A stretch of 53,025 nt of DNA from an uncultured SAR86 cluster bacterium (GTDB taxonomy: Bacteria > Pseudomonadota > Gammaproteobacteria > Magnimaribacterales > AG-339-G14), in NCBI GenBank assembly GCA_902616715.1, contig CACMTR010000004.1, positions 64,028 to 117,052 on the forward strand, given 5' to 3'. The notes beneath the pieces were generated by a model that did not search any database, was not told the DNA's origin, and saw nothing but the letters and a program-made list of their open reading frames with translations. Below are positions 44,855 through 53,025 of the stretch, piece by piece; position 1 is the first letter of the stretch; each line of letters starts with the position of its first letter. A program made the position numbers and the translations under genes.

Positions 44855-44931
<77 letters not shown>

Positions 44932-44953
44932 CTTTAAAGATACCCTTAAATTC

Positions 44954-44972
44954 AAAAAAAGTACCTTTTTTT
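44954..44972 (+). terminator. Candidate terminator after rpoD-tRNA
   Basis: An 8-base stem (seven A and a G at 44954-44961 paired with C and seven T at 44965-44972) with a TAC loop forms a hairpin ending in a T run, 23 bases after the tRNA. Only one G-C pair, so strength is doubtful, but position fits a terminator separating the tRNA from the iron-regulated receptor gene. Confidence 0.42.
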
Positions 44973-45016
44973 AGGCTGTACCTTTATAACAAGCAGTTAT
45001 TTATATATATCAAAAT

Positions 45017-45035
45017 GATAATGATTCTCATTACT
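45017..45035 (+). promoter_or_regulatory. Fur box 1
   Basis: GATAATGATTCTCATTACT matches the 19-base Fur consensus at 15 of 19 positions. It lies 58-76 bases upstream of the TonB-dependent receptor ATG, over a region with -10-like TATATA sequence just upstream. Predicts repression by iron-loaded Fur. Confidence 0.8.
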
Positions 45036-45044
45036 ATTTCAAAT

Positions 45045-45063
45045 GATAATGAGAATGATTATT
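45045..45063 (+). promoter_or_regulatory. Fur box 2
   Basis: GATAATGAGAATGATTATT matches the Fur consensus at 16 of 19 positions, 30-48 bases upstream of the receptor ATG and 28 bases centre to centre from box 1. Two boxes in tandem suggest cooperative or extended Fur binding over the promoter. Confidence 0.8.
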
Positions 45064-45092
45064 ATTTAAGAATTATTTACTCGAAAAAAAAT

Positions 45093-47237
45093 ATGAAAAA
45101 AATATTTTTATCTAGCTTGCTTCTAACAGGTGGAGTTTTCCTTTCAAGTGGCTTGTCTGCACAAGAAGAATTGACTGTAAGAGGCAATGTTCTTTATTCT
45201 GACCAAGTCAATGCACTTAAAACTCCAGTGTCGGTTATTAATGTACCTGTTTCTGTATCAATTATCACTGACGATGAAATTGCCAGACAAGGATATCAAC
45301 AATTAGGAGACCTAGTCAGATTCACACCAGGTGTAAGTACTTCTCAAGGAGAAGGCCATAGAGATGCAATTGTTTTTCGAGGCAATAGATCAACAGCTGA
45401 CTTTTTTCAAGACGGTGTTAGAGACGATGTTCAATATTACCGTTCACTTTATAATGTAGAGCAGGTAGAGATTTTAAGAGGTCCTAACGCTTTATTGTTT
45501 GGTAGAGGTGGTACTGGTGGCGTTATTAATAGAGTTTCCAAAAAGGGTGTCTTAGGAGAAACCTTTGGTTCGTTCTCAATTGGCTCGAACACTTTCGGCG
45601 CTTATGATTTCGTTGCAGATTATAACATTTCAATTAATGAAGATAGATCTTTAAGAATTATGGCTCACCGAGATTATCTAAACAATCACCGATCTTATTA
45701 CGATGGAGATCGAGCAGGATTTAATCCTACTTTAAAAGTTAAGTTGAGTAGCAAAACCGCATTGGACGTTTCTTACGAATATGCTGATCACGAAAGATTT
45801 ATTGATCGAGGTATACCTACAGGCTCTAATGGAGAACCAGTTGAAGCTTTAGCCGATATCGTTTTCGGTCATCCAGATCTTAATACTCAAACTCTAACTG
45901 CTGATATATTCAGAGCTACCATCACTAGAGACATCTCAGATACTTCTAAAGCTATTTTTTCTGTTACTAATAACGAATTTGAAAAAATGTATCAAAACCT
46001 TTATGTTGCTGGCCACAATGCTACTCTTGAAGAAGTAGCTTTGGATGGATACTTAGATCCTACGACAAGAGAAAATTTAATTATTTCAGCTAACTTTGTA
46101 AACGAACTTGAATTAGGTTCTGCGACGCACACTATTTTATTTGGTGTTGAAGTGGTTGACACTGATAACAAAAACTTTCGATACAATACTAATTTCAGCA
46201 ATGCTGGAGCTTTACCTTTAGCTAATGATGGTTCTGGAATTTACACAGCAGGTAGCTCACAAGCAGGGAAAAGTGATAGAGAAACATTTTCGATTGCTGA
46301 CATAAAAGCAGGTATCTTTAATAGAGACGAGGCCGGTGCAGCAGTTACATTGGATTTCACTTCAAGTCTTAACAATAGTACTACTACTGAATTTGAAGTT
46401 ACTTCTTTCTTCCTTCAAGATCAAATAGATGTTTCTGACAACTTGAAGCTTCTTCTTGGTGCAAGATACGACGACTACGAAATTACTGTAGTTAATCTTA
46501 AGCCTGGTTCTGAAGCTACTGTTACCAAAGAAGAGGATTTGGTTTCACCTAGAGCAGGTATTATTTTTAAACCACAAGACAATGTTTCAATTTACGCTAG
46601 TTACAGCAATACCTTTGCACCTGTAGCCGGGGAACAATACAAAGCAATGTCTAACAACTCTACTTTGGGTGCAGTTCTAGATGCCAGTGAAACTGAAAAT
46701 ACTGAGATAGGCTTGAAATGGGCTATTTCTAATGAGTTATTTTTAACGGCCGCATATTTTGATGCAGAAAGAACTGCTATGACGGCAGTTACAGTAAATA
46801 ACGTTGCTGAGCAGCAAGAAGTAGTAAATCAAAACGTGGACGGTATAGAAATTGAGTTAGTAGGAAAAATTTCAGATCAACTAGAACTGACAATGAGTTA
46901 CGCTGATTTTGAAGGAGATACTGTTGCCAAGAATAAAGAAATTCCAGATTATCAATTTTCTACATTCGCTAACTATCAGGTTAACGACAAATTCGGTATC
47001 GGATTTGGCGTAACTTCTCAAGGCGATCAGCAAATTGGAACTGGGGCAACTCCTTATTTGCCAAGTTTTACAAGAGTTGATGTCGCTGCATATTACCAAA
47101 TTGCTGATGATTTAATGTTGCAAATGAATATAGAAAACTTAACTGATGAAACGTATTTCCCTCACTCACACTCAACACATCAAGCGTCAGTTGGAGAAGA
47201 AGTTAATGCTAATTTCTCAATTAGAAGGACTTTCTGA
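45093..47237 (+). CDS. TonB-dependent siderophore receptor (Fiu/CatE-like)
   Basis: Outer-membrane beta-barrel of 714 residues for ferric-siderophore uptake, powered by TonB-ExbBD. Seen: signal peptide MKKIFLSSLLLTGG... with cleavage after LSA near residue 23; TonB box-like EELTVRGN; plug domain (about 40-155) with PVSVSIITDDEIARQGYQ, LVRFTPGVSTSQGEG, RGNRSTADFFQDGVRDD and VEILRGPNALLFGRGGTGGVIN; then the barrel ending in the typical aromatic C-terminus NFSIRRTF. The plug resembles catecholate receptors. A longer frame reaches back into the tRNA and is rejected. Preceded by two Fur boxes; the substrate is not certain. Confidence 0.93.
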   Translation: MKKIFLSSLLLTGGVFLSSGLSAQEELTVRGNVLYSDQVNALKTPVSVINVPVSVSIITDDEIARQGYQQLGDLVRFTPGVSTSQGEGHRDAIVFRGNRSTADFFQDGVRDDVQYYRSLYNVEQVEILRGPNALLFGRGGTGGVINRVSKKGVLGETFGSFSIGSNTFGAYDFVADYNISINEDRSLRIMAHRDYLNNHRSYYDGDRAGFNPTLKVKLSSKTALDVSYEYADHERFIDRGIPTGSNGEPVEALADIVFGHPDLNTQTLTADIFRATITRDISDTSKAIFSVTNNEFEKMYQNLYVAGHNATLEEVALDGYLDPTTRENLIISANFVNELELGSATHTILFGVEVVDTDNKNFRYNTNFSNAGALPLANDGSGIYTAGSSQAGKSDRETFSIADIKAGIFNRDEAGAAVTLDFTSSLNNSTTTEFEVTSFFLQDQIDVSDNLKLLLGARYDDYEITVVNLKPGSEATVTKEEDLVSPRAGIIFKPQDNVSIYASYSNTFAPVAGEQYKAMSNNSTLGAVLDASETENTEIGLKWAISNELFLTAAYFDAERTAMTAVTVNNVAEQQEVVNQNVDGIEIELVGKISDQLELTMSYADFEGDTVAKNKEIPDYQFSTFANYQVNDKFGIGFGVTSQGDQQIGTGATPYLPSFTRVDVAAYYQIADDLMLQMNIENLTDETYFPHSHSTHQASVGEEVNANFSIRRTF

Positions 47238-47367: not shown

Positions 47368-48621
47368 CTAGTAAATTTTAGATACTTTTCTGAGTTCTTT
47401 TTGAGCTGATTTATCAGATCGTTTCAGCTTAAGATCAGACCATACTTTATCGAGAGACTCAACAAAACTTTCAACATCCGAGGCTGAGTGTTTAGGTGTA
47501 ATTGTAACCCTGAACCTTTCATCACCTTTTGGCACGGTTGGATAAAATATAGGTTGAATGTATATTCCATGTTCCTCTATTAGAGTGTTTGCAGCTTTCT
47601 TACATAGCTCGGGTTCGTATAGATGAATTGGCACTATGTGACTGTCATTTTTGAGGAAAGGTATGTTGTATTCAGCTAAACCTTCTCTAATTAAATTTGA
47701 GTTCGTTTTAATATTTTCTCTTAAAATATCTGCTCTTTTTGCGATTTGGATGGCTTGAATTGATGCAGCCGCAATGCTTGGATTAGAAGAGGAAGTAAAA
47801 ATAAAACCTGGAGCGAAACTTCTTATAAAGTCTATTATGTCCTTGTTTGCTGTTATGTAACCCCCCATTTGACCAAAAGCCTTGGATAATGTTCCGTTAA
47901 TAATATCTATTTCGTCTGATACGTTTAGTTCCGCCGCAATCCCTCTTCCCTCAGGTCCATATAAACCAACAGAGTGAACTTCATCTAAATAAGTTAGAGC
48001 ATTATATTTTTTAGCCAAATTCACAATTTGTTTAATTGGAGAACGTAATCCCTCCATCGAATATAGTGATTCAAATACGATTAATTTTGGCGTATTTGCG
48101 TTTGAAGTTTTAAGAAGTTCTTCTAAATGCTCTACATCATTATGTTTAAAGACATGAGTAGTAACATTTGCATTTTTAATACCCTGAATCATAGAAGCGT
48201 GGTTTAGTTCATCTGAATAAACCTCGCAACCTTCAAGTTTCTTACACAAGGTCCATAAAGTAGATTGGTTAGCTGTGTATGCTGAGGGAAAAAGCAAGCT
48301 TGCTTCTTTACTATGCAATTCTGCTAAATTTTGTTCTAAATCCGCATGGTAAGTAGAAGTACCAGAAATATTTCTTGTACCTCCTGATCCTGTACCTAAT
48401 TCTTTAATAACTTTGATTGATTCAAGAATAACAACTGGGTGTTGGCTTAAATTTAAATAGTCATTGCTACACCAAACTTCTACTGCTCTTTCTTTTCCTT
48501 CAAAACGTTCAGTTGCTTTTGGGAAATTAATTTGATTTCGGTTGATTTGTCTGAATTTTCTGTAAAGACCCTGAGATTTGAGCGATGTTAATTCGTCTGC
48601 AAAGTATTTTTTATAATTCAT
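47368..48621 (-). CDS. 5-aminolevulinate synthase (C4/Shemin pathway)
   Basis: PLP enzyme condensing glycine and succinyl-CoA to 5-aminolevulinate, the first step of tetrapyrrole synthesis in the C4 route. 417 residues. Seen: WCSNDYLNLSQHP at 50-62, GSGGTRNISGT at 78-88 (Thr82 and Asn84, positions used for succinyl-CoA recognition in Rhodobacter), DELNHASMI near 137-145, LDEVHSVGLYGPEGRGIA at 212-229, PLP lysine Lys247 in GTLSKAFG, and the ALAS-specific PTVP with ERFRVT at 361-373. These separate it from KBL and BioF in the same family. Named hemA in alphaproteobacteria, but that symbol means glutamyl-tRNA reductase in most Gammaproteobacteria. Divergent from hemC. Confidence 0.93.
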   Translation of the reverse strand: MNYKKYFADELTSLKSQGLYRKFRQINRNQINFPKATERFEGKERAVEVWCSNDYLNLSQHPVVILESIKVIKELGTGSGGTRNISGTSTYHADLEQNLAELHSKEASLLFPSAYTANQSTLWTLCKKLEGCEVYSDELNHASMIQGIKNANVTTHVFKHNDVEHLEELLKTSNANTPKLIVFESLYSMEGLRSPIKQIVNLAKKYNALTYLDEVHSVGLYGPEGRGIAAELNVSDEIDIINGTLSKAFGQMGGYITANKDIIDFIRSFAPGFIFTSSSNPSIAAASIQAIQIAKRADILRENIKTNSNLIREGLAEYNIPFLKNDSHIVPIHLYEPELCKKAANTLIEEHGIYIQPIFYPTVPKGDERFRVTITPKHSASDVESFVESLDKVWSDLKLKRSDKSAQKELRKVSKIY

Positions 48622-48719
48622 TTAATAATAATATTACTTACGAGTCGAAGTATAAATGAAAGTACTATTTAATAGATATAAATTTTATAATTACATTCTT
48701 TATATATTAAAAAGTTATA
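48622..48719. promoter_or_regulatory. Divergent promoter region ALAS / hemC operon
   Basis: 98 very AT-rich bases. On the minus strand TATACT (48654-48649) could be the ALAS -10; on the plus strand TATAAT (48686-48691) could serve hemC. Neither has a good -35 at normal spacing. No Fur-box-like sequence was found here, unlike upstream of the receptor. Confidence 0.4.
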
Positions 48720-50213
48720 TTGAAAACAATAAGAATAATTTCTAGAAAAAGTTTGCTTGCAAGAATTCAAGCCAATATAGTTGCTGAAAAGATAAAAGAA
48801 GAATTTTCTAATATCAACATAGAATTTTTAACTAAGGAAACATCAGGAGATATAGATTTATCTACTCCATTACATCAGATGCCTGACCCTGGTGTTTTTA
48901 CTAATGATATAAGAGAAGAACTCCTTAAAAATAAAGCAGATTTAGCAGTTCACTCGTGGAAAGATTTACCAGTTGAGTTGCAAAAAGGAACTGAAATAGT
49001 TACTACTTTAAAAAGAGAGGATCCAAGAGATTTATTGATTTTTAAAAAAAGCTCTATCGAGAAAAAAAAGATTAATATCTTTACATCTTCTCCGAGAAGA
49101 AAAGAGAACCTTTCCAATTTTCTTCCAGAGTTTTTAAGTTGGAAGCCAAAAAAAGTTAATTTCATAGATGTGAGAGGAAATATCCAAACAAGAATTTCTA
49201 AACTTTTTGATTCTAAAGAAGATGGACTGGTGATTGCTCTTGCCGCAATGAAAAGACTTTTATCTTCACCTCAATTTATTGAAGAAGAATCATATCTTTT
49301 AAACTTTTTAAAAGAATCAAATTGGATGATTCTTCCGCTATCTAAAAATCCAGCTGCCCCCGCACAAGGTGCGCTTGCCGTTGAGATTGCATCAAACAAT
49401 CATGAATTAAAAGATCTAATGTATAAAATTGGAGACGAAAAAACTTTTAATCTTGTTAATAAAGAAAGAGAGATATTAAAAAAGTATGGGGGCGGATGTC
49501 ATCAAAAAATTGGTGTAACAATATTAAATTCAAAAAAAGGAGAAATTTTAAATCTCAAAGGTGAGACTGAAGAAGGTAAAAAAATTTCTGAATCTTCTTT
49601 CATTCCCGTTTCAACCTTAAAAAATAATTTAAGAAATATTGAAAGTTTTTTTCCCTTAAATACTTCTTCTTCTCAAATATTTGATAGAACGCCACTCTCT
49701 AACGTAGAAGAAAATGTCTCAAGAATTAAAGATGCAGGTATTTTTGTCAGTAGGGGTAATGTCTTAGAAAATATAAAAACGATTTCGAAAACAAATATAG
49801 TTTGGACAAGTGGAGTAGAAACTTGGAAAAAACTGGCATCAGAGGGAATCTGGGTAAATGGTACTTCTGATAGTATGGGAGAAAATGAGAATCCACCGAT
49901 TGGATTATTTGGCAAAGTGAAATGGTTTAAATTGTCTCATTTAGATGCGAAGGAAAAGAAACTGGAGCTGTTACCAACGTATCAACTTGTTCCTAAAAAA
50001 TTACCAAAAGATATAGAGAAAAATTCTCATTATTTCTGGATGAGCGCAAGTTCCTTTAAACTCGTTTTAAAAAAATTTCCTTCTATCGAAAATGCTAATC
50101 ATGCATGTGGAATGGGCAAAACTTTCGATGAAATTAATCAACTAATCCCTGGAAAAGTTTATCCTTATCAGAATTATCAAGATTGGCTAGATAAAATTAG
50201 ACGAGCAAAGTAA
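48720..50213 (+). CDS. hemC: Hydroxymethylbilane synthase with C-terminal HemD-like extension
   Basis: 497 residues against about 310 for ordinary HemC. Residues 1-300 are porphobilinogen deaminase: SRKSLLARIQANIV at 8-21, HSWKDLP with catalytic Asp82, VRGNIQTRISKL near 151-162, APAQGALAVEI near 213-223, and the dipyrromethane cofactor Cys260 in GGGCHQ. The last 190 residues are a second domain with IVWTSGVETWKKLASEGIWVNG near 360-381 and, at the end, FWMSASSFKLVLKKF and HACGMGKTFDEI, which recall the uroporphyrinogen-III synthase (HemD) fold; no separate hemD is present in the operon. That the extension is HemD is inference. TTG start; the N-terminus aligns well. Confidence 0.9.
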   Translation: MKTIRIISRKSLLARIQANIVAEKIKEEFSNINIEFLTKETSGDIDLSTPLHQMPDPGVFTNDIREELLKNKADLAVHSWKDLPVELQKGTEIVTTLKREDPRDLLIFKKSSIEKKKINIFTSSPRRKENLSNFLPEFLSWKPKKVNFIDVRGNIQTRISKLFDSKEDGLVIALAAMKRLLSSPQFIEEESYLLNFLKESNWMILPLSKNPAAPAQGALAVEIASNNHELKDLMYKIGDEKTFNLVNKEREILKKYGGGCHQKIGVTILNSKKGEILNLKGETEEGKKISESSFIPVSTLKNNLRNIESFFPLNTSSSQIFDRTPLSNVEENVSRIKDAGIFVSRGNVLENIKTISKTNIVWTSGVETWKKLASEGIWVNGTSDSMGENENPPIGLFGKVKWFKLSHLDAKEKKLELLPTYQLVPKKLPKDIEKNSHYFWMSASSFKLVLKKFPSIENANHACGMGKTFDEINQLIPGKVYPYQNYQDWLDKIRRAK

Positions 50214-50234: not shown

Positions 50235-51230
50235 ATGAAAGACTTGTTAAGAAAATTTCCTACAACTAGATTGAGAAGGAATCGCCTAAAGAGCGGTCTA
50301 AGATCGATTTTAGCCGAATCAGACATAACTGTGAATGATCTCATTCAGCCAATATTTATTAAAGAGAATTTGTCTGGTTATGAACCAATTGTTTCGATGC
50401 CTGACGTTAATAGAATTGGCGAAAACGTTTTAAAATCAGAATTACAAAAAATAGTTGATGTCGGTATTAAAGCAATCGCTGTCTTTCCAGTAATTGATGA
50501 AAAGAAGAAAGATCCACTAGGCTCTGAAGCATATAAACAAGATAATTTCTTAAATAATTCAATTTCAAAAATTAAAGATCTTTTTCCTGAATTAATAACC
50601 ATAGCCGATGTTGCGCTGGATCCATATACCGACCACGGACATGACGGAGTTTTAAATGAATCAGGAGATGTAGATAATGACCTAAGTCTCGAAGCTTTAA
50701 AAAAACAAGCGTTATTTCTTGCTAAAGCTGGATCTGATGTAGTTGCGCCTTCAGATATGATGGACGGTAGAATTAAGGTAATAAGAGATGCACTAGAAGA
50801 GGAAAATTATAAGGATACGGTTATTTTGTCTTATGCTGCAAAATACAGCTCAAAATTTTATGGACCATTTAAAGATGCGGTCGAATCTGCAAAATTTTTT
50901 GGAAACAAAACTAAAGATACTTATCAGATGTCTCCAACTAATAAATTAGAGGCGTTACATGAAGTTGCTATGGATATAAATGAAGGCGCTGACATTGTAA
51001 TGATTAAGCCTGGGATGCCTTACTTAGATATAGTATCTTCGGTAAAAGAGGCCTTCAAAATTCCAACTTTTGTTTACCAAGTTAGTGGAGAATACTCTAT
51101 GCTTAAGAGTGCAATTGCAAATGGTTGGCTTTCAGAGGAAGTAATTAGAGAGTCTTTAGTTTCATTTAAAAGGGCTGGAGCTGATTGTATTTTGACCTAC
51201 TCTGCTTTAGAAGTAGCTAAAAATTTATAA
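50235..51230 (+). CDS. hemB: Delta-aminolevulinic acid dehydratase (porphobilinogen synthase), Mg-type
   Basis: Condenses two aminolevulinates to porphobilinogen. 331 residues. Seen: RLRRNRLKSGLRSIL near 12-26, DVALDPYTDHGHDG at 125-138, APSDMMDGRI at 171-180, SYAAKYSS with Lys203, and the Schiff-base Lys258 in MIKPGMPYLD. The three zinc cysteines of the metal loop are replaced by Ala127, Asp129 and Asp137, so it is a zinc-independent, Mg2+-type enzyme as in Pseudomonas. 21 bases after hemC, three before hemE: clearly one operon. Confidence 0.97.
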   Translation: MKDLLRKFPTTRLRRNRLKSGLRSILAESDITVNDLIQPIFIKENLSGYEPIVSMPDVNRIGENVLKSELQKIVDVGIKAIAVFPVIDEKKKDPLGSEAYKQDNFLNNSISKIKDLFPELITIADVALDPYTDHGHDGVLNESGDVDNDLSLEALKKQALFLAKAGSDVVAPSDMMDGRIKVIRDALEEENYKDTVILSYAAKYSSKFYGPFKDAVESAKFFGNKTKDTYQMSPTNKLEALHEVAMDINEGADIVMIKPGMPYLDIVSSVKEAFKIPTFVYQVSGEYSMLKSAIANGWLSEEVIRESLVSFKRAGADCILTYSALEVAKNL

Positions 51231-51233
51231 AAA

Positions 51234-52253
51234 ATGTCCAACAAAAAGTTCTCCAATGCACTAGAAAACATTCCTCAGTCAACGCCTCCTATTTGGTTTA
51301 TGAGACAAGCAGGAAGATATCATAGTCATTATCAAAACTTAAAAACTAAAAATTCATTCGTAGAGCTTTGTAAAACTCCTTTGTTGGCAGCAGAAACAGC
51401 TTTAGGTCCGATTGAATCATTTGATTTCGACGTAGCGATTCTTTTTAGTGACATCTTATTTCCTTTGGAGAGTTTAGGAATGGAACTTACATACTCTCCT
51501 GGTCCTAGTTTCGAAAGTTATCTAACAGAAGAAAATTTTAAAGAAGTATTTAAAAATAAATTTGATATAAATTCATTATCTTTTCAAGGTGAGGCATTGC
51601 AAAGGACGCGAGAAATATTGCCAGAAGATAAATCATTGATTGGATTTGTTGGAGGCCCAATTACTTTATTGGCCTACGCGATGGGTCTAAACAAAATCAA
51701 AGGGAACCTTAACATTGGTGATTTTCAATGGGGAATGTTAGATGATGTTCTTATTCCAACCATTTCAGAAAATATAGAAATGCAATTAAATGCTGGAGCT
51801 GAATTAATTATGATTTTTGACTCTTCAGCTCATTTATTAAGCACAAATGACTTTATAAAATATGTCGAAAAGATGTTTGATCAAGTTTTTTTAAAATTTA
51901 GTAAAAAAATAGGTTATTACGCAAAAGATCATATCGATTATGATGCAGTAATTTACATGAATGAATCAAAAGGAGCTTGTCTGGCTGGAGTTGGAATTGA
52001 TTCGAATGAACCCCTTAATAAATATTTCACTGAATCTAGAGATTATTTTATCCAAGGTAATTTCGATGAAAAAAAAATGTTATTGCCCAATGATTCTATG
52101 AAATTAGAGTTAGAAAAATATATTAACAACCTATCGAATTTTACTGAACAACAAAAAGCCGGGTGGATTTGTGGCTTAGGCCACGGAATTCTAAAGGAAA
52201 CTCCAGAAGAAAATGTTAAAACTTTTGTCAAAATGATAAGAGAGGCTTTTTGA
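51234..52253 (+). CDS. hemE: Uroporphyrinogen decarboxylase
   Basis: Decarboxylates uroporphyrinogen III to coproporphyrinogen III. 339 residues. Seen: IWFMRQAGRYHSHYQ near 21-35 with the catalytic Arg pair region, ELCKTPLLAAETALGPI near 44-60, FDVAILFSDILFPLESLGM near 65-83 with the essential Asp, GFVGGPITLLAYAM near 137-150, IFDSSAHLL near 195-203 and the closing GLGHGILKETPEENV. The VWMM form of the first motif in enterics is IWFM here. Starts four bases after hemB; its TGA overlaps the hemH ATG by one base. Confidence 0.96.
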   Translation: MSNKKFSNALENIPQSTPPIWFMRQAGRYHSHYQNLKTKNSFVELCKTPLLAAETALGPIESFDFDVAILFSDILFPLESLGMELTYSPGPSFESYLTEENFKEVFKNKFDINSLSFQGEALQRTREILPEDKSLIGFVGGPITLLAYAMGLNKIKGNLNIGDFQWGMLDDVLIPTISENIEMQLNAGAELIMIFDSSAHLLSTNDFIKYVEKMFDQVFLKFSKKIGYYAKDHIDYDAVIYMNESKGACLAGVGIDSNEPLNKYFTESRDYFIQGNFDEKKMLLPNDSMKLELEKYINNLSNFTEQQKAGWICGLGHGILKETPEENVKTFVKMIREAF

Positions 52254-53025
52254 TGAGTTTTTTAGGAGAAAACAACTTCAGTCATGAAAATGAAGAAAAT
52301 ATAGGGGTGCTAATTTGTAATTTAGGAACACCTGACAGTTACTCAGTCAGTCACGTTAGAGCTTTTTTAAGAGAATTTTTATCTGATAAAAGGGTGATAG
52401 AAATCCCAAGAATTTTATGGTGGTTCATTTTAAACCTTTTTATCCTGCCTTTTAGACCCTTTAGCTCGGCAAAATTATATAAATCCGTTTGGACAGAAGA
52501 AGGATCTCCATTAATGGTATATTCCCAAAAGTTAGTAAAAAAATTAGAGCAAGATTTACCTCCTAACTACTCCCTTGCCTTAGGTATGCGATATGGTAAT
52601 CCAAGCATTAATGCAGCTTTAGAAAAGCTTAAACATAATAATTGCAGGAAAATTGTTGTGCTTCCGCTTTTCCCTCAATACTCAGCAACCACAACGGGTA
52701 GTATTTTTGACAAAGTCTCCGAAGTCATTAGTAGCTGGCGATGGGTGCCAAGTTTAATTTTTGTAAATTCTTATCATGATGATAAAAATTTTATTAAGGC
52801 AATATCTCAGTCACTAAAGCCAAAATTTGATCAAGAGAATCCAGATAAAATAGTCTTTACATATCATGGAATTCCAAAAAAATATTTTGATCAAGGCGAC
52901 CCTTACCATTGCTTATGTCAGAAGACCTCAAGACTTGTTTGTGAAGAACTTGGTATTCAAAAAGAAAAAGCCATTACCGCTTTTCAATCTAGGCTTGGCA
53001 GTGCTGAATGGTTAAAACCTTATAC
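52253..53025 (+). CDS. hemH: Ferrochelatase, N-terminal part
   Basis: Inserts ferrous iron into protoporphyrin IX, the last step of heme synthesis. 257 residues are in the window; the gene continues past the right edge. Seen: IGVLICNLGTPDSYSVSHVRAFLREFL near 17-43, KLYKSVWTEEGSPLMVYSQKL near 75-95, VVLPLFPQYSATTTGSIFD near 135-153, and the iron-site His in FTYHGIPKKYFDQGDPY near 203-219, followed by HCLCQKT. One-base overlap with hemE. The HCLCQKT cysteines resemble those of gammaproteobacterial ferrochelatases. Confidence 0.97.
   Translation, partial: MSFLGENNFSHENEENIGVLICNLGTPDSYSVSHVRAFLREFLSDKRVIEIPRILWWFILNLFILPFRPFSSAKLYKSVWTEEGSPLMVYSQKLVKKLEQDLPPNYSLALGMRYGNPSINAALEKLKHNNCRKIVVLPLFPQYSATTTGSIFDKVSEVISSWRWVPSLIFVNSYHDDKNFIKAISQSLKPKFDQENPDKIVFTYHGIPKKYFDQGDPYHCLCQKTSRLVCEELGIQKEKAITAFQSRLGSAEWLKPY

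Follow-up and report, generated by a model that had tools for sequence, protein, structure and literature searches.

The window analysed here, a stretch of 53,025 nucleotides from an uncultured SAR86 cluster bacterium, carries close to its end a block of heme biosynthesis genes (Table 1). Hereby, the 5-aminolevulinate synthase (ALAS) gene alaS is read from the minus strand, the plus-strand translation of the same interval being full of stops, and is followed in divergent orientation by hemC, hemB, hemE and the start of hemH, the hem neighbours that the first-pass annotation had pointed out. The gap between alaS and the hemC-D gene is probably a shared promoter region of both. By tblastn, hemF lies after hemH on the same contig (locus L087), outside the window. 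On its other side alaS adjoins a gene for a TonB-dependent receptor (44898-47237), and a similar gene, named by eye, is likewise found in the SAR86 locus L118; the receptor may be connected with the supply of iron or heme.

Table 1. Features of the heme gene block, in window positions
Feature	Position	Strand	Evidence
alaS, 5-aminolevulinate synthase, 417 aa, ATG start	47368..48621	minus	profile, PDB, residue and tree evidence
alaS/hemC-D gap, 98 bases	48622..48719	between divergent genes	coordinates
hemC-D fusion, 497 aa, TTG start: hydroxymethylbilane synthase + predicted cryptic HemD-like domain	48720..50213	plus	
Hydroxymethylbilane synthase (PBGD) part, about residues 1-285	48720..49574	plus	PF01379 6.6e-52; TIGR00212 208 bits vs 164
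HemD-like part (predicted uroporphyrinogen-III synthase fold), residues 311-497	49650..50210	plus	predicted fold; no sequence family match
hemB, 5-aminolevulinate dehydratase, native SAR86 type	50235..51230	plus	PF00490 2e-126; tree
hemE, uroporphyrinogen decarboxylase, alphaproteobacterial type	51234..52253	plus	PF01208 5.9e-71; tree
hemH, ferrochelatase, cut by window end	52253..53025	plus	tblastn in L087, same contig

Kbl, BioF and ALAS belong to one fold family. The alaS product reaches 548.8 bits with the TIGR01821 model, thereby passing the curated equivalog cut-off of 338.55, and stays below the cut-offs of the BioF model (327 vs 426 bits) and of the glycine C-acetyltransferase models (324 vs 460 and 281 vs 493). 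Its top PDB matches are five ALAS (E 8.4e-119 to 9.7e-106), with the Kbl/BioF group trailing at E 2.4e-68. All nine aligned residues of R. capsulatus ALAS (R21, T83, N85, H142, D214, H217, K248, T365 and R374), which we take to be the catalytic positions, are kept in the window protein as R21, T82, N84, H141, D213, H216, K247, T362 and R371. In a tree that includes Kbl of Salmonella and BioF from an E. coli phage record, the window protein falls with ALAS and not inside the Kbl/BioF clade. Profile score and tree placement thus confirm on sequence grounds that the gene codes for a true ALAS, separable from KBL and BioF as claimed before, with catalysis predicted.

The genome that contains the window comprises 1,158,399 bases in six contigs and is 85.66% complete. 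Among the best 80 of at least 591 ALAS matches, the named relatives are SAR86 cluster bacteria (L118, isolate AG-349-F19, 93% identity; L122, 76%; L119, 74%). The record of L122 labels itself a MAG, and AG- names presumably stand for single-cell genomes. The host is therefore a member of SAR86, which agrees with the gammaproteobacterial context recognised earlier.

To place the gene within the order, 61 genomes were searched, namely the window's own and 36 more of its family f1 and eight each of the families f2, f3 and f4. ALAS only was found in 38 of them, glutamyl-tRNA reductase (GluTR) only in 15, both in none and neither in eight, an exclusion with a Fisher p of 7e-9 in a statistic that ignores kinship among the 61 genomes. 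ALAS, at 74-100% identity, occurs in 32 of the 37 f1 genomes (including one split in two pieces and one with a 62% fragment only) and in six of the eight f2 genomes, and was found in none of the eight f3 genomes searched. All eight f4 genomes carry ALAS-family homologues of 30-33% identity (e.g. G045:C1:706955-708121), which were left out of the ALAS count; four of these homologues carry one TGA within the match. GluTR, in turn, is present in 8/8 f3 and 7/8 f4 genomes and was found in none of the 45 f1 and f2 genomes, the window's own included. HemL passes the cut-off in 7/8 f3 and 8/8 f4 genomes (15 of 16 together), the one remaining f3 genome (G047) giving a partial match of 439 bits vs 527, and in none of the 45 f1 and f2 genomes; in the window's own genome the best HemL match reaches 242 bits, below the cut-off of 527. 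As a control, the GluTR family was detected in 10 of 14 named genomes, not including Caulobacter, and the ALAS family in one of the 14, Caulobacter. Judged by these searches, SAR86 with ALAS displays the C4 (Shemin) pattern, with no GluTR and no HemL over the cut-off, as the first-pass annotation had supposed when it suggested that the C4 route replaced the C5 route and asked for a genome-wide search for both enzymes. Below, genomes with ALAS are called C4-type and those with GluTR C5-type. In a scan with 16S probe sequences, the SAR86 probe matched exactly in both f3 genomes scanned and with 3-4 mismatches in four C4-type genomes.

Five of the eight genomes with neither route belong to f1 and are 70-88% complete; one f4 genome (G051, 89% complete) has HemL. 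The remaining two, G052 and G058, are f2 genomes of different genera, 93% and 82% complete; in searches of both there was no match to ALAS, GluTR, HemC or HemE and none over the cut-off to HemD or HemL, and they may be heme auxotrophs. In four of four C5-type loci of 20 kb the gene order is ychF-pth-rplY-prs-ispE/hemA-prfA-prmC, the neighbours of hemA being named by eye from translations. The hemA-prfA-prmC layout is usual in Gammaproteobacteria. Since hemA is kept beside prfA-prmC in all four loci, the C5 route looks ancestral in SAR86 and the C4 route a replacement. Neither prfA nor prs nor ispE was found in the window or in ten C4-type loci inspected.

The common fold family, together with an assembly of six contigs, could lend itself to a quite different account, in which alaS would be a homologue of Kbl or BioF, or a binning error would have brought in the contig with alphaproteobacterial DNA. 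We give this account practically no weight, as profile scores and tree place the gene with ALAS and the same ALAS pattern recurs in the 38 genomes of the order, among them G005 and G040, each a single contig, as well as in named SAR86 records, with a native hemB inside the cluster (see below). For the latter reasons, the presence of ALAS in SAR86 is not a binning error.

Across the class, ALAS (E <= 1e-100) was found in 4 of 369 genomes drawn over Gammaproteobacteria, namely two of SAR86, G221 and G162. The match in G162 contains stops, leaving G221 with the sole intact non-SAR86 gene among the 369 genomes. Given this rarity, a replacement of C5 by C4 looks very unusual in Gammaproteobacteria. 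In G221, the G162 contig, a Rahnella plasmid and a Parageobacillus plasmid, ALAS is accompanied by a GNAT acetyltransferase, a Gfo/Idh oxidoreductase and an MFS transporter (cassette loci L085, L086, L115 and L116; neighbours annotated on the plasmids and named by eye in G221 and G162). The L085 cassette also holds an asparagine-synthetase-like gene, and a cassette-type ALAS also occurs in G704, a congener of G221, as the one gene checked at its locus L106. Intact cassette copies are 44-48% identical to the SAR86 protein, and the G162 copy is 52% identical over a 353-residue stretch. Four cassette copies and one viral row form a clade of their own in the larger tree (three copies in the careful tree). 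The occurrence of this cassette in unrelated hosts possibly reflects a mobile cluster for an ALA-derived metabolite.

Such cassettes indicate that an ALAS of secondary metabolism (for a C5N unit or similar) may exist in other Gammaproteobacteria on top of a normal C5 pathway, and the SAR86 gene could be read in the same way. Against this stand the lack of GluTR in the window's own genome (85.66% complete) and throughout the 45 genomes of the two families, the hem genes that adjoin alaS, and the separate clade and 44-48% identity of the intact cassette enzymes, which together make a secondary-metabolite role highly improbable. The cALAS assignment was rejected on account of the hem neighbours and of the searches yielding no complete C5 pathway. 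No complete C5 pathway accompanied by an antibiotic (C5N) cluster came to light, and the earlier view of a housekeeping source of ALA holds.

An origin from phages was rejected as well. The best 80 ALAS of viral contigs are 44-49% identical to the window ALAS, no viral AlaS row groups with SAR86 (ten rows in the larger tree, four in the careful tree), and the matches in phage genomes all stay below 33% identity and are Kbl or BioF where annotated. A viral scan for relatives of the fused HemC described below found none. The ALAS of one viral contig, IMGVR_UViG_2687453793_000001 (L108), groups with the plasmid-cassette type, apart from the main viral AlaS clade.

Much closer sequences are found in AG-913-B05 (L120, genome G705) and AG-426-J11 (L121, genome G706), two records under the label 'uncultured Alphaproteobacteria', whose ALAS are 64% identical to that of the window; the remaining non-SAR86 rows among the best 80 of at least 591 matches lie at 45-51%. 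In 61 genomes around G705, ALAS was found at 61-65% identity in 29 (termed HIMB_A; two partial) and at 46-48% in 24 (HIMB_B), the other eight having none or weak or fragmentary matches. SAR11 16S probes matched these alphaproteobacteria with two mismatches at best. The G+C content of five HIMB_A loci (28.6-29.9%) agrees with the mean of 29.09% given for the family GCA002718135 in an excerpt of PMC10734472, and for this reason, together with their small genomes, HIMB_A and HIMB_B probably belong to the HIMB59/AEGEAN-169 order.

In the careful ALAS tree, rooted at its midpoint, the 12 SAR86 rows and the 7 HIMB_A rows are sister groups with a support of 100/100, each of the two being one clade; HIMB_B falls outside this pair (95/74), and all lineages with the HemC fusion come together at 78/93. 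The ALAS trees support the idea of an alphaproteobacterium-like donor put forward in the first-pass annotation.

The surroundings of alaS were compared by tblastn maps. In six of six f1 loci alaS is divergent from hemC-hemB-hemE-hemH-hemF (the hemH match of L076 lying in two frames), and four f2-type loci (L079, L080, L119 and L122) show the cluster without hemH, a 37%-identical HemH following further on in L080. HIMB_B has alaS/hemC-hemB-hemE-hemH-hemF in 6/6 loci, and HIMB_A has alaS/hemC-hemE-hemH-hemF, without hemB, in all five loci of sufficient length (L121 and L329 being cut short). The HIMB_B gene order is also found in the alphaproteobacterial loci L367 and L368, while L370 carries hemH-alaS-hemC-hemB-hemE on one strand. 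The SAR86 arrangement thus resembles a marine alphaproteobacterial cluster, probably that of the HIMB59/AEGEAN-169 order.

Individual gene trees reveal that the block is not of one origin. In a quick HemE tree, C4-type SAR86 and HIMB_A group together inside the Alphaproteobacteria (98), C4-type SAR86 by itself being weakly held (56), and C5-type SAR86 groups with five other Gammaproteobacteria (100). In line with this, the window HemE is 46% identical to that of G705, 43% to that of G742 and 27-35% to those of nine C5-type SAR86. The HemC tree places C4-type SAR86 within fusion-bearing Alphaproteobacteria (98/98), apart from C5-type SAR86 and G221 (100/99), and neither separates it from HIMB_A nor holds it as one clade. 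HemB behaves differently: in a quick tree, for which the program warns of long branches, C4- and C5-type SAR86 stand together (100), far from alphaproteobacterial HemB. Since HemE and HemC go with Alphaproteobacteria but HemB goes with all of SAR86, the block is, by these placements, a mosaic with a native SAR86 hemB inside. From the gene order, hemH and hemF probably moved with the block; HemH from L118 shows 51-52% identity to HIMB_A and 51-53% to HIMB_B, and so does not favour the former. Hence the gene transfer and the alphaproteobacterial source suggested in the first-pass annotation are supported and extend from ALAS to several hem genes, and both the native character of hemB and the fused, HemD-like part of hemC described below had escaped it.

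The HemC protein of the window is considerably longer than its hydroxymethylbilane synthase part. Its last ~190 residues have no sequence match in Pfam (PF02602, HEM4, included), NCBIfam or PDB, and hhalign of this C-terminal part with SAR86 HemD gives a probability of 5%; an assignment to HemD by sequence was therefore dropped. In a control, the alignment of seven C5-type SAR86 HemD and one G221 HemD finds PDB HemD with E 7.7e-38. The full-length fusion is present in 8/8 C4-type SAR86 genomes searched (the G012 copy stops a few residues early) and in G705, that of G706 being cut by the contig end. Seven of eight C5-type genomes have a HemC of 289-314 aa that is matched over the first part alone, with G042 giving no match, and the fusion was found in none of these seven. 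Ordinary HemD (PF02602), in turn, passes the cut-off in seven of eight C5-type SAR86 genomes and in G221, and in none of eight C4-type genomes, of the pair G052 and G058, or of the two alphaproteobacteria of donor type (G705 and G706); weak matches of 11-17 bits (cut-off 27.5) occur in four C4-type genomes. In 14 control genomes the family was detected in all, over the cut-off in 12.

While an AlphaFold2 model of the full-length fusion was unusable (pLDDT 50.8), modelling residues 311-497 by themselves, on the basis of five sequences, gave a mean pLDDT of 78.6. A Foldseek search with this model against PDB returns uroporphyrinogen-III synthases at ranks 1-9 (E 5.6e-5 to 6.4e-3, probability 0.99-1.00), with TM values by query of only 0.39-0.53 and rmsd values of 6.3-10.6 A; the match at E 5.6e-5 has a probability of 1.00 and a TM of 0.48 by query. 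VIA-align likewise places uroporphyrinogen-III synthases at ranks 1-10 (Z 8.7-5.9, the next other fold at 5.6), the match at Z 8.7 having an rmsd of 5.5 A over 167 residues; only two rows attain Z 8, the tool cautioning that lower values can reflect common arrangements. According to the model, residues 311-497 thus have the two-domain fold of HemD. Y421-x-Leu, W440-M441-S442 and G464-x-G466 are invariant in this part, and the order of Y421, S442 and G464-x-G466 fits, in a mapping of our own, that of the tyrosine, serine and G..T sites of HemD. HemD sequences, as an excerpt of PMC7242693 has it, hardly align and have no known essential residue, mutagenesis hinting at a possible active-site tyrosine.

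In a class-wide draw of 385 alphaproteobacterial genomes, the HemD-like domain occurs in 12, all of 1.2-1.6 Mb. More distant HemC fusions of this kind were seen in the alphaproteobacteria G862, G1137, G796 and G935 (L363 to L370), one of them with 52.5% G+C. These distant fusions suggest that the fusion of HemC may predate the HIMB59 order.

Conceivably, the C-terminal part could be a regulatory or structural extension, with uroporphyrinogen III coming from another enzyme or heme being imported, a view to which the missing sequence match to HemD and the moderate structural agreement (VIA Z 6-9, rmsd >=5 A) would lend themselves. Yet the leading matches of both structure searches are uroporphyrinogen-III synthases throughout, with other folds only from Z 5.6, genomes with the fusion lack an ordinary HemD over the cut-off, and the invariant Tyr-x-Leu, Trp-Met-Ser and Gly-x-Gly follow the order of the HemD sites in our mapping, so that we hold the extension to be improbable. 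Most likely, the window hemC codes for a HemC-HemD fusion with a cryptic HemD of predicted function. What we claim for residues 311-497 is that they would work like HemD by their modelled fold, not that they belong to HemD by sequence.

In conclusion, we propose, with a probability of about 0.86, that a housekeeping ALAS replaced the C5 route and came with a heme block from an alphaproteobacterium of the HIMB59/AEGEAN-169 type. Hereby, the two sampled SAR86 families with this ALAS would draw their housekeeping 5-aminolevulinate from it, the enzyme having displaced the C5 route (GluTR and HemL), which the other two sampled families would still use. The incoming block would have consisted of alaS, the hemC-hemD fusion, hemE and probably hemH and hemF, donated by a marine alphaproteobacterium of the presumed HIMB59/AEGEAN-169 order, with the native hemB ending up inside it. 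In the resulting pathway, ALAS would form ALA from glycine and succinyl-CoA, HemB would convert ALA to porphobilinogen, and the N-terminal part of the fusion would polymerise porphobilinogen to hydroxymethylbilane. The C-terminal part, as a much diverged uroporphyrinogen-III synthase, would close the ring, the unstable bilane possibly being handed over directly between the two parts, and HemE, HemF and HemH would carry on to heme.

The direction of transfer that we infer could also be turned around, with an unsampled alphaproteobacterium as donor to SAR86, which then handed the block on to HIMB_A, or with a third lineage as the donor of both. This would suit the HemC tree, which leaves the order of C4-type SAR86 and HIMB_A open, the HIMB_A cluster without hemB next to the SAR86 cluster with its own, and the fact that each of the two is one ALAS clade. 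However, HIMB_B, the relatives of HIMB_A, and two more alphaproteobacteria carry the same fused cluster with an alphaproteobacterial hemB; SAR86 and HIMB_A nest among alphaproteobacteria with the fused cluster for ALAS (95/74, inclusive node, midpoint root) and HemE (98); and the fusion occurs in 12/385 alphaproteobacteria and 0/7 C5-type SAR86 with a HemC found. We thus regard this course of events as unlikely, if less so than a mere extension of HemC, and prefer a transfer from the Alphaproteobacteria into SAR86.

SAR86 is among the commonest heterotrophs of the ocean. We lean towards a broader statement, less firmly than to the transfer itself: two abundant surface-ocean lineages of different classes have one essential heme block by transfer, and SAR86 gave up the C5 route and its two separate proteins HemC and HemD, gaining a C4 synthase of alphaproteobacterial type together with a bifunctional HemC-HemD, whose HemD half lies beyond profile detection, while its own HemB was kept in the cluster. 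Such genomes can seem to be without hemD, and calls of heme auxotrophy in HIMB59/AEGEAN-169 may partly reflect that. Heme auxotrophy is reportedly the subject of a study by Kim et al. in 2021, cited in PMC10308909. The HIMB_B clusters hold alaS, hemC-D, hemB, hemE, hemH and hemF, and in view of these the AEGEAN-169 call may deserve a second look; in the excerpted text of PMC10308909, members of AEGEAN-169 are called heme auxotrophs with reference to cited work. For annotation, this means that pathway tools that depend on PF02602 would score one step as absent from the genomes of C4-type SAR86 and of the HIMB59 type. The replacement of C5 by C4 in SAR86 involves a gene block, beyond one gene, and a HemD-like domain this short and this strongly diverged, joined to HemC, offers a useful new comparison for HemD.

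In the open-licence literature we found no paper that links SAR86 to aminolevulinate synthase, to heme biosynthesis or to hemA; in one paper on heme auxotrophy SAR86 is named in the references only, and the words SAR86 and heme are absent from PMC12416821. C4 ALAS, transfer of ALAS genes and HemC-HemD fusions (in Leptospira, by the excerpt of PMC8698207) are known kinds of findings. As far as the open-licence literature shows, the exchange of C5 for C4 in SAR86, the mosaic block in common with HIMB59-type alphaproteobacteria and the cryptic HemD are new.

Compared to R. capsulatus ALAS (PDB 2bwn), the enzyme of the Shemin C4 pathway in Alphaproteobacteria, the window ALAS has the family, the active-site residues and the predicted role in common, but unlike such alphaproteobacterial enzymes it is hosted by a gammaproteobacterium. 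Its closest counterparts are those of the HIMB59-type marine alphaproteobacteria (61-65% identity), whereas the other alphaproteobacteria compared reach 42-51%. The secondary-metabolism-like cassettes of G221, Rahnella and Parageobacillus also bring ALAS into a gammaproteobacterium; SAR86 ALAS, however, lies in another clade and has other neighbours, and no hem genes were seen beside cassette ALAS. The viral AlaS (valaS) of aquatic phages from marine samples, as described in an excerpt of PMC11480375, resembles the SAR86 case in that ALAS occurs outside the usual alphaproteobacteria in a marine setting, but the SAR86 alaS is chromosomal and stands within a hem cluster. Finally, the HmbS-UroS fusion of Leptospira interrogans, for which HemC and HemD activities on one chain are proposed in the excerpted part of PMC8698207, has a one-chain arrangement that is also predicted for SAR86, where the HemD part is assigned by modelled fold; in SAR86 this part is short (~187 aa) and matches no HemD profile.
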